A DNA stretch of 64,000 nt from Nitrospinota bacterium. GTDB taxonomy: Bacteria > Nitrospinota > Nitrospinia > Nitrospinales > VA-1. The stretch spans positions 1-64,000 of the forward strand of contig JAQCGX010000013.1 in NCBI GenBank assembly GCA_027619975.1, in the 5' to 3' direction. Under the pieces are notes generated by a model. The model worked only from the letters and a program-made list of their open reading frames with translations. It was not told where the DNA came from and ran no database searches. Position 1 is the stretch's first letter; the number at the start of each line of letters is the position of its first letter. Positions 1 through 51,226 of the stretch are shown in pieces. Made by a program: the position numbers and the translations under genes.

Positions 1-68
1 GCCACCAATATAAGAAATCCTTGTACAGTGTTCGATTTCCTGTAATAAACTAATTTTTAGAGATGCCC
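1..68 (-). repeat. MITE-like repeat, family A, cut by window edge
   Basis: The reverse complement of this stretch begins with GGGCATCTCTAAAAATTAG and matches the first 68 bases of the element at 34126 with only a few mismatches. The outer end of the element is at 68, directly beside the stop codon of the gene remnant to its right. The rest lies outside the window. Confidence 0.75.
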
Positions 69-17126: not shown

Positions 17127-18326
17127 GTGCCAACATTTACGTATAAAGCCAGGGTGAAGGGGCAGATCAAATCAGGCGAGGTGGATGCGGAAGACGAAAA
17201 GTCCGCAGTCGCCAAGTTGAAAGTCCAGAAAATCCGCATCAACTCCATCAAGAAAAAGGGCGGTTCGAGTGATTTTTTCGGTCCTAAAAAACAAAAAATC
17301 ACCGGTCGGGATATCGTTGTGTTTACCCGCCAGTTTTCCACCATGGTGGATGCCGGGCTTCCCCTCGTCCAGTGCCTGGATATTTTAGGCAGACAGTCCG
17401 AAAATAAAACCTTAGGAGGGATCACCCTGCAGGTCAAGTCCAATATTGAAAAGGGAAGCGATCTCTCCGATTCGATGCGCAAGCACCCCACAGCATTTGA
17501 CGGCCTGTATTGCAACCTCGTGGAAGCCGGAGAGGCGGGCGGTATTCTTGATATCATCCTGAAGCGCCTGGCCGATTATATTGAAAAATCCGAATCCCTC
17601 AAGCAGAAGGTAAAATCCGCCATGGTGTACCCTGGCGTCATCGTCACTGTTGCCGTGGGTGTGGTGGCTTTTCTGATGATTTTTGTCATTCCCGCTTTTG
17701 CCACTTTGTTTGAGAGCGGAGGGGCGGAATTACCCGGTCCCACCAAGATTGTCATGATGGTGAGTGATTTTTTCCGCACCAAATGGTATTACCTGTTTGG
17801 CGGCGTTGCGGCTTTTATTTTTATTGTCCGCAAGATGTACTCTACCGAGCGGGGTCGTTATGAAATCGACAAACTGGCACTGAAAGTTCCCGTGGTCGGA
17901 GAGCTGATCCGTAAGGTTTCCGTTGCCAAGTTCACCCGTACCCTGGGCACGCTGATCTCCAGCGGTGTCCCATTGATCGAAGGGCTGGAAATTTGTGCCC
18001 GTACTTCCGGCAACAAGATCGTTGAGAGGGCGGTATTCAGGACCATCGAGGCCATCAAAGGAGGGGAAAACATTGCCGGCCCCTTATCCAGGGAAAGTAT
18101 TTTTCCGCCGATGGTGATTCAGATGATCGACGTTGGCGAGAACTCCGGATCGCTGGACACCATGTGTCACAAAGTCGCTGATTTTTATGACGAGGAAGTC
18201 GATAACGCGGTTGCTGCCCTGACCTCTCTATTGGAACCGATGCTGATGGTTTTTCTTGGCCTCGTTGTAGGTTTCATTGTCGTGGCGATGTATCTGCCAA
18301 TATTCAAGATGGGCGACGCGATCTAG
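17127..18326 (+). CDS. pilC: Type IV pilus inner-membrane platform protein PilC
   Basis: This 399-residue protein has the two tandem T2SSF domains of PilC/GspF, each with its conserved block (FTRQFSTMVDAGLPLVQCL near residue 70 and FTRTLGTLISSGVPLIEGLEI near 270), and membrane helices near 170-195, 220-235 and 370-395. It forms the inner-membrane platform on which PilT/PilB ATPases act. The start is a GTG (MPTFTYKARVKGQIKSGEVDA matches the family start). The stop codon TAG at 18324-18326 lies within the left terminal repeat of a MITE, so the element inserted exactly at the end of the gene. Confidence 0.92.
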   Translation: MPTFTYKARVKGQIKSGEVDAEDEKSAVAKLKVQKIRINSIKKKGGSSDFFGPKKQKITGRDIVVFTRQFSTMVDAGLPLVQCLDILGRQSENKTLGGITLQVKSNIEKGSDLSDSMRKHPTAFDGLYCNLVEAGEAGGILDIILKRLADYIEKSESLKQKVKSAMVYPGVIVTVAVGVVAFLMIFVIPAFATLFESGGAELPGPTKIVMMVSDFFRTKWYYLFGGVAAFIFIVRKMYSTERGRYEIDKLALKVPVVGELIRKVSVAKFTRTLGTLISSGVPLIEGLEICARTSGNKIVERAVFRTIEAIKGGENIAGPLSRESIFPPMVIQMIDVGENSGSLDTMCHKVADFYDEEVDNAVAALTSLLEPMLMVFLGLVVGFIVVAMYLPIFKMGDAI

Positions 18327-18561
18327 CAGGCTGCTGAAAAAGAGAAAAATCCGTCAGCGAGTTAAGTTTTACAGGTTTTTGCTTTTAAGTAGCACAGCCT
18401 TTCCAGGCTGTGCGCACAGGCTGGAAAGGCGGAATTAAATTCCGCACTTCCGCATTGACTTTAAGGATAGGTCGCCTGTGTTACTTGGTTTTCTTAAATT
18501 AACAGTAAACTTGAAATTAACATTTTAAGGTCCCAAAAATAGTTTTTCAGCAACCTGCTAG
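18323..18561. mobile_element. MITE-like element, family B (239 bp)
   Basis: The ends form a 19-base inverted repeat with one mismatch, CTAGCAGGCTGCTGAAAAA at the left and its complement at 18543-18561, including CTAG at both outer edges. The element encodes no protein. Its centre contains a module (a GGCGGAATTAAATTCCGC palindrome followed by GGTCGCCTGT) that is nearly identical to the centre of the family A element at 50974, although the terminal repeats differ. Confidence 0.82.
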
Positions 18562-34125: not shown

Positions 34126-34302
34126 AGGCATCTCTAAAAATTAGTTTATTACAGGAAACCGAACATTGTACAAGGATTTCTTGTATCAGTGGCATGGGCT
34201 TTCTAGCCCGTGCGGACAGGCTGGAAAGCCTGTCCCACTAAAACAAAACCATCTCCTTAAATTGACGATTAGGAGCATTTAGTCAATTTTTAGAGGTGCC
34301 CT
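34126..34302. repeat. MITE-like element, family A (about 177 bp)
   Basis: It begins GGCATCTCTAAAAATTAG and ends TCAATTTTTAGAGGTGCCCT, near-perfect terminal inverted repeats. The centre has a hairpin GCTTTCTAGCCCGTGCGGACAGGCTGGAAAGC. The left 68 bases match the element at the window's left edge. Confidence 0.82.
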
Positions 34303-34427: not shown

Positions 34428-34511
34428 TGCCGAAGGTCGGAGTCGAACCGACACGGGGTTGCCCCCACAGGATTTTGAGTCCAGCGCGTCTACCAATTTC
34501 ACCACTTCGGC
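34428..34511 (-). tRNA. tRNA-Leu (CAA)
   Basis: On the minus strand GCCGAAG pairs with CTTCGGC plus discriminator A. The D-arm reads GAAATTGGTAGAC, the anticodon loop is CTCAAAA (anticodon CAA), a long variable arm has GGGG-CAA-CCCC, and the T-arm reads CGGTTCGACTCCG. The long variable arm is diagnostic for a class II tRNA. CCA is not encoded. One T-T mismatch appears in the anticodon stem. Confidence 0.93.
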
Positions 34512-50967: not shown

Positions 50968-50973
50968 GCTAAT

Positions 50974-51194
50974 GGGCATCTCTGAAAATTAGTTTTTAAA
51001 AGGAAATCGAACGTTGAGCAAGGGTTTCTTAAATCGGTGGCACGGACTTTCCAGCCCGTGCGGACAGGCTGGAAAGGCGGAATTAAATTCCGCACTTCCG
51101 TATAACCTTTAAGGGTAGGTCGCCTGTTCTGCTAAAAAAGTCGCCTCTTTGAATTGACGATTAGGTGTGTTTAATCAATTTTTAGAGATGCTCT
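50974..51194. mobile_element. MITE-like element, family A (about 221 bp)
   Basis: It starts GGGCATCTCTGAAAATTAG and ends AATCAATTTTTAGAGATGCTCT. Its flanks match the element at 34126, but an extra centre (palindrome GGCGGAATTAAATTCCGC and the following 40 bases) matches the family B element at 18323. It is placed between xseA and xseB and encodes nothing. Confidence 0.82.
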
Positions 51195-51226
51195 AATAAT
51201 ATTTACAACATTTAATCAGGTGCGTC

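Follow-up and report, generated by a model that had tools for sequence, protein, structure and literature searches.

Bacterial REPs and MITEs are usually handled as separate classes of repeats that are served by separate enzymes. The IS5 family habitually leaves 4-bp YTAR-like target duplications. The MITE family analyzed here (family A) resembles the MITEs of the IS5 family in being short, in lacking a transposase, and in having terminal repeats, a 4-bp YTAR-like duplication and an IS5-type partner in a congener; it differs from them in that the same ends surround two unrelated cores, one of which is a REP doublet. This doublet corresponds to the REPIN/RAYT systems (PMC3116915, PMC2817692), as far as the accessible parts of these papers describe them, in the GT(A/G)G head, the short palindrome with compensatory changes, the inverted arrangement and the REP-flanked RAYT gene. 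In contrast to these systems, most of the placed REPs lie near MITE ends, the doublet is almost spacerless, and one of its loops may hold a 46-bp insert. The GTAG repeat families (PMC3733652) likewise possess a GTAG or GTGG tetranucleotide and alternative complementary stem residues, and their GTAG-1 units adjoin unrelated stem-loops in Pseudomonas; in the accessible part of the source, however, they are not described as MITE cores.

Two further systems are comparable. The TIME mosaic elements are non-autonomous and carry different cores between like ends but, according to the accessible part of their description, have Tn3 ends, larger cargo and duplications of 5 or 6 bp (PMC4133298). A MITE of Porphyromonas gingivalis also contains a repeat of another type, which in the accessible account is a minisatellite and not a REP (PMC4596501); the available text of a review of prokaryotic MITEs calls it BrickBuilt (PMC10969869). 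No description of a REP doublet as a MITE core was found in the literature covered, which comprised the accessible parts of PMC3116915, PMC3733652, PMC2817692, PMC8266576 and PMC10969869, among others, with subscription papers mostly outside this coverage. The elements described below are a new combination of known kinds.

The A element that served as the starting point lies in the window, i.e., the whole analyzed stretch of 64,000 nucleotides, at positions 18327–18557 (plus strand; subtype A1). The sequence-only reading had placed a MITE at 18323–18561 and given it terminal repeats of 19 bases with one mismatch. Positions 18323–18341 and 18543–18561 do pair in this way, but the outer four bases on either side (CTAG, 18323–18326 and 18558–18561) are the target-site duplication, which is itself palindromic, and the repeats proper are 15 bp long (CAGG(T/C)TGCTGAAAAA; left repeat 18327–18341, plus strand; right repeat 18543–18557, minus strand), the boundary being set by comparison of copies. 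Upstream of the element lies a T2SSF gene (PF00482, 17127–18326) and downstream a gene for a PilS-like sensor kinase. The T2SSF frame retains its stop, since the TAG codon is contained in the left CTAG. In the centre of the element, REP 1 (18389–18413, plus strand), with a GTAG head, an 8-bp stem and a 6-nt loop, is followed by the inverted REP 2 (18414–18484, minus strand), whose loop is split by a 46-bp insert, M (18428–18473, plus strand), with the palindrome GCGGAATTAAATTCCGC inside. At gathering scores Rfam gave no match in the elements, and its sole match in the window was a tRNA.

Genome-wide searches with both kinds of terminal repeat, as the sequence-only reading had proposed, revealed many further copies. 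In the host genome (2.93 Mb in 72 contigs), the A end was matched 84 times and the B end, which belongs to the second family, 197 times, against 1 and 0, respectively, for the reversed-pattern controls; the A ends are therefore not due to chance. The fetched loci yielded 92 end pairings, of which 28 belong to A and 64 to B; those longer than 300 bp (1 A, 3 B) were excluded. This left 27 A and 61 B pairings, the latter including one extra pairing of one right end in locus L137. Identical 4-bp flanks were found in 22 of the 27 A pairings (TTAG in 11, CTAG in five and others in six), and no match was obtained when both flanks were moved outward by 1, 2, 3, 5 or 8 bases. The flanks of the B pairings, which are AT-rich, were identical over 4 bp in 50 of 61 cases, compared with 0 to 2 for the outward-shifted control. 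Both families thus have terminal inverted repeats, many copies and a fixed 4-bp duplication, as is characteristic of MITEs. The site of the window A element was vacant in all four congeners, in which the T2SSF gene passes straight into the sensor gene; the window reads GATCTAG at this site, and the congeners read GATTTAG (one) or GATTTAA (three). Neither of the outcomes named by the sequence-only reading as refuting it was observed: further copies exist for both kinds of end, and the relatives examined show an unoccupied site for the A element.

Family B is represented in the window by the element at 50974–51193 (plus strand), located between the genes for the large and small subunits of exonuclease VII and flanked by TAAT duplications (50970–50973 and 51194–51197). 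Its ends mismatch each other at two places, and the repeat finder gave only the REP arms and missed them; across the family the B ends are about 17–19 bp long. The core of this copy consists of REP 1 (51037–51061, plus strand, GTGG head) and REP 2 (51062–51132, minus strand) with M at 51076–51121, a state that we designate REP2-M. That this element shares its core with the differently ended one at 18323 was confirmed by sequence comparison. What had been described as the common centre is the insert M, but the shared part is larger and comprises two inverted REPs, the second of them with M. Another B MITE, with a core without M (type i) and a TGTA duplication, is located at 34126–34301 (plus strand), and the left arm of one more B element, truncated where the contig begins, occupies positions 1–68 (minus strand). 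The tRNA gene of the window (34428–34511, minus strand) is located about 125 bases past the B MITE at 34126–34301.

The core is built of two inverted hairpins, each with a GT(A/G)G head, an 8-bp stem and the loop TTTCCA. Using a 25-mer of this REP with up to 3 mismatches, we found 118 matches in the host genome, 19 in congener G002, two in congener G003, one in G004 and five in G007, and none in 41 other genomes of the family; the reversed pattern gave no match in any of the 46 genomes. Among 20 distinct REPs, 98.1% of the stem cells were paired, and the covariation of the stems was 0.332 versus 0.135 in shuffled sets, none of 500 of which scored as high. The host genome contained one gene found for a Y1 transposase, which was identified as a REP-associated tyrosine transposase (RAYT; NCBIfam NF047646, 96.5 bits against a cut-off of 80) and which showed a weak match to E. 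coli TnpA_REP 4er8 (E 0.0098; single-domain E 0.21). This gene is located on contig C55 and is flanked by REPs at 96–120, 623–647 (inverted) and 692–716, all without mismatches; among the matches listed, they make up three of the eight mismatch-free copies in the host genome. The repeats therefore show the properties of GTAG-type REPs, namely a GT(A/G)G head beside a short palindrome whose stem changes compensate each other, and a RAYT gene that they flank. The RAYT search gave weak matches in six other genomes; no close relative of the host RAYT was found in G002, G003, G004 or G007, though all of them have REPs.

The two REPs of A1 and B elements are arranged as in REPINs, inverted and with the GTAG heads outward. 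Among the matches listed, at least 68 of 86 placed REPs of the host genome have a listed end of A or B no more than 230 bp away; the remaining 18 are not near a listed end, and at least one of them (C23:16449) belongs to a B copy. On contig C21, two loci each have a pair of REPs set apart by a spacer; the spacers are almost alike, and the flanks differ. Such a spacer is present between the REPs of solo pairs and is nearly absent inside the MITEs.

The proposed check for full transposons with the same ends revealed an IS5-family insertion sequence corresponding to A in congener G002 and none in the host genome among the genes with a DDE_Tnp_1 domain. The insertion sequence of G002 (locus L198) has the ends CAGGGTGCTGAAAAA, identical to the A end in 14 of 15 positions, and CTAG on both sides; it encodes a transposase of 379 aa that matches NCBIfam NF033581 (IS5 family) with 250 bits against a cut-off of 140. 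Another contig of G002 (L199) ends inside an element in which an exact A end is accompanied by a partial transposase, which, with 99 bits, falls under the NF033581 cut-off and lies above the Pfam cut-off for DDE_Tnp_1. By reading, the subterminal sequence of the A MITE is not shared with these two elements, and the ends alone agree. Family A is probably IS5-derived, as this congener has an autonomous IS5-family element whose ends are nearly those of A and which is bordered by duplicated CTAG. The search for DDE_Tnp_1 genes in the host genome revealed no autonomous element of either family. The sole such gene detected belongs to an IS5-family insertion sequence on contig C15 (L195, 1306–2489), which we rejected as the autonomous partner, its 34-bp inverted ends being unrelated to those of A and B. 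Likewise, no autonomous element with B ends was identified at the loci inspected, one per genome in four genomes.

The A ends enclose two different cores. Among the 27 A copies, 16 have the REP core (A1), a count that includes one copy with other stems (L071) and, by reading, one A1/A2 chimera (L026); the other 11 (A2) contain TTCGACAAGCTCAG-like repeats in a core that is unrelated to it. MITEs of the A2 type, with inverted TTCGACAAGCTCAG-like repeats as their core, were observed at L063, L064, L066, L067, L100, L104, L105 and L107 of the host genome and at L180–L193 of congeners. Among five genomes of the genus, A1 was found in the host genome only, and the A-ended elements printed from G002 and G003 all have the A2 core (9 of 9); judged by this distribution, A2 looks like the older form within the genus. 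The exact A2 core sequence, used as a word, was found in none of the published papers searched.

Outside the host genome, the REPs together with M gave no match at E 0.01 in 45 other genomes of the family. A search of named genomes for the exact core, in which own or near records were possibly excluded, gave one further stretch (L202). It contains, at 2000–2240, a part of a B element with a REP core on a contig labelled as an Alphaproteobacteria MAG, OFTM99; we suspect that this contig is misbinned. In a comparison of seven A1 arms from five loci with the arms of at most eight B loci, no similarity above that of shuffled sequences was revealed. Since the tested arms are alike only at the shuffle level, the sharing between A and B is, as far as tested, confined to the REP core.

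With up to 1 mismatch on the better strand, 45 sites of the insert M were found in the host genome. All of them belong to A or B copies, whether complete or partial; 43 were placed by arm seeds and two by reading. M is present in eight of the 16 A1 copies. The B copies of up to 240 bp (n = 60) were distributed among core states as follows: type ii in 18, REP2-M in 17, type i in 14, REP1-M in eight and others in three; none of the B pairings of 241–300 bp has the core. One B copy on contig C12 (L050, 1470–1632) has M and TTAT on both sides, with both of its arms shortened.

The M sequences fall into two kinds. At the first diagnostic place, CCGCAT is found in all eight A copies with M and in all eight REP1-M copies of B, and CCGTAT in all 17 REP2-M copies. 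At the second place, GGATAGG is found in 8/8 A copies and in 6/8 REP1-M copies (the other two have a one-base deletion), and GGG(T/C)AGG in 17/17 REP2-M copies. Moreover, two A copies (L002 and L006) and one B copy (L067) have identical M sequences. In type ii cores, the left half is of the REP1 type in 17 of 18 copies, the remaining one having a base deleted, and the right half is of the REP2 type in all 18. The allele pattern suggests that M was transferred between A and B, and that either an ancestor had M in both REPs, forming a near palindrome reckoned at 142 bp, or the two kinds recombined. No element with M in both REPs was found among the 45 M sites, no two of which lie within 400 bp of each other. 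A local flip of M within one element as the source of REP1-M was also considered and rejected, as the CCGCAT and CCGTAT alleles differ in 8/8 versus 17/17 copies.

The core state of B is almost unlinked to the arms. In a tree of the arms of 56 B copies (four of the 60 were dropped because their arm border was not recognized), the core states require 25 changes, with a minimum of four possible; shuffled states required 29.3 on average and as few as observed in six of 200 shuffles. Since so low a count was obtained in just these six, a slight linkage between core and arm persists. Pairs of B copies with identical arms differ in core state in 18 of 24 cases, compared with 75.5% of all 1540 pairs. 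Three states (types i and ii and REP1-M) occur in one set of seven B copies with identical arms, and a REP2-M copy is close to this set; in family A the A1 copies L002, L007 and L009 have identical arms and differing cores. In addition, the right arm of one B copy (L145, 421–597) seems, by eye, to be a chimera of two arm subfamilies. In two other B copies (L025, 247–378; L142, 557–689) the core is collapsed to the hairpin foot, GTGGCAC or GTGCCAC.

The sequence-only reading had attributed the exchangeable centre either to recombination between elements or to the core being a nested repeat in its own right, and the data provide evidence for both. On the one hand, the core is a pair of REPs that also stand alone and of which three perfect copies flank the RAYT gene. 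On the other hand, A ends enclose cores of two unrelated kinds, a single core is found between the ends of either family, A and REP1-M copies of B have the same M allele, and the B state varies almost independently of the arms. The REP/RAYT link, the mixing of core states and the insert alleles, taken together, identify the core as a nested repeat that has also been exchanged or remodelled.

We consider it probable that the window A element is a composite, in which an IS5-type MITE has a REP doublet as its centre with one loop enlarged by M, that the unrelated MITE family B acquired a centre of the same kind, and that doublets were captured, M was transferred and the palindrome was remodelled. 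A DDE transposase of the IS5 kind would act in trans on the A ends, copy the whole composite and leave the 4-bp duplication, and B would spread likewise through a putative enzyme. The centre would belong to the RAYT/REP system of the same genome. Each family would have captured a REP doublet before spreading; this step we infer, as no A1 or B copy was seen entirely free of a trace of the REP foot. The M of the doublet may then have passed between A and B. Long palindromes are unstable in bacteria, and from a putative ancestor with M in both REPs the long nested palindrome inside the copies could have repeatedly collapsed or recombined, giving rise to the four main core states.

It is possible, though we doubt it, that the REP doublet with M is the mobile unit itself and that the RAYT inserted it into a MITE of A type and, independently, into one of B type, with no exchange of DNA between the families. 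REPs and spaced REP pairs do exist outside MITEs, the two C21 pairs with their differing flanks being an example, and the RAYT gene lies among perfect REPs. Against this, every M site belongs to an A or B copy, and the REP stems of A and B differ while M is identical in some copies. In addition, M is situated inside the REP loop, whereas TnpA_REP, according to the accessible part of PMC8266576, cuts beside the REP. Descent of A and B from one ancestral element whose ends changed later, which would account for the like layout of their cores, appears improbable, given that the tested arms agree only as shuffled ones do, that A ends also occur with an unrelated core, in the host genome and in two congeners, and that the duplications are YTAR-like in A and other AT-rich 4-mers in B.

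That copies with identical arms differ in their core states would have a technical origin if short reads had joined the arms and cores of different copies. Many contigs begin or end within A or B elements, and the assembler may therefore have misjoined some cores. We nevertheless regard such an artefact as unlikely: the target duplications match across most copies, so that both sides of a copy belong together, and the mixed-allele make-up of type ii is fixed in 17 to 18 of 18 copies. If the assembly is a short-read one, these two observations argue against a purely technical cause of the mixing; the REP pairs, the RAYT and the sharing of the core are independent of it. There is equally little to recommend the view that the cores persist because they act in RNA, for instance in mRNA stability or in termination between genes, and not because they are mobile, with selection maintaining the hairpins. 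Folding is indeed strong (z −6.6 for the RNA of A; as DNA, −6.2 for A and −4.2 for B), and both compared copies are located between co-directional genes. But MITE ends and REPs fold regardless of use, covariation of the REP stems is expected from recognition by the RAYT, and the core states are dissimilar to each other.

The composite reading, with a captured and remodelled REP doublet, has consequences for both classes of repeats. The location of most placed REPs near MITE ends points to a second route of REP spreading, i.e., carriage by another transposon. The many sibling copies represent a natural experiment, in which palindrome remodelling can be followed in the sequences themselves; should long reads bear out the core states, the way in which palindromes are rebuilt during or after transposition would become testable. 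More tentatively, two transposition chemistries might share one miniature element, DDE working on the ends and HUH/RAYT on the REP core; the core would be an interchangeable module, passed from one MITE family to another and changing among discrete palindromic states at a higher rate than that at which point mutations accumulate in the arms.

It should be added that elements of the two families were also found inserted into one another. An A MITE sits in a B end at two loci (L066, 1337–1705, and L104, 249–747), and a B MITE sits in an A element at L195 (2577–2767). At the start of contig C28 (L097, 1–60), a B end runs directly into the middle of an M; here a B element seems to have been inserted into another core.
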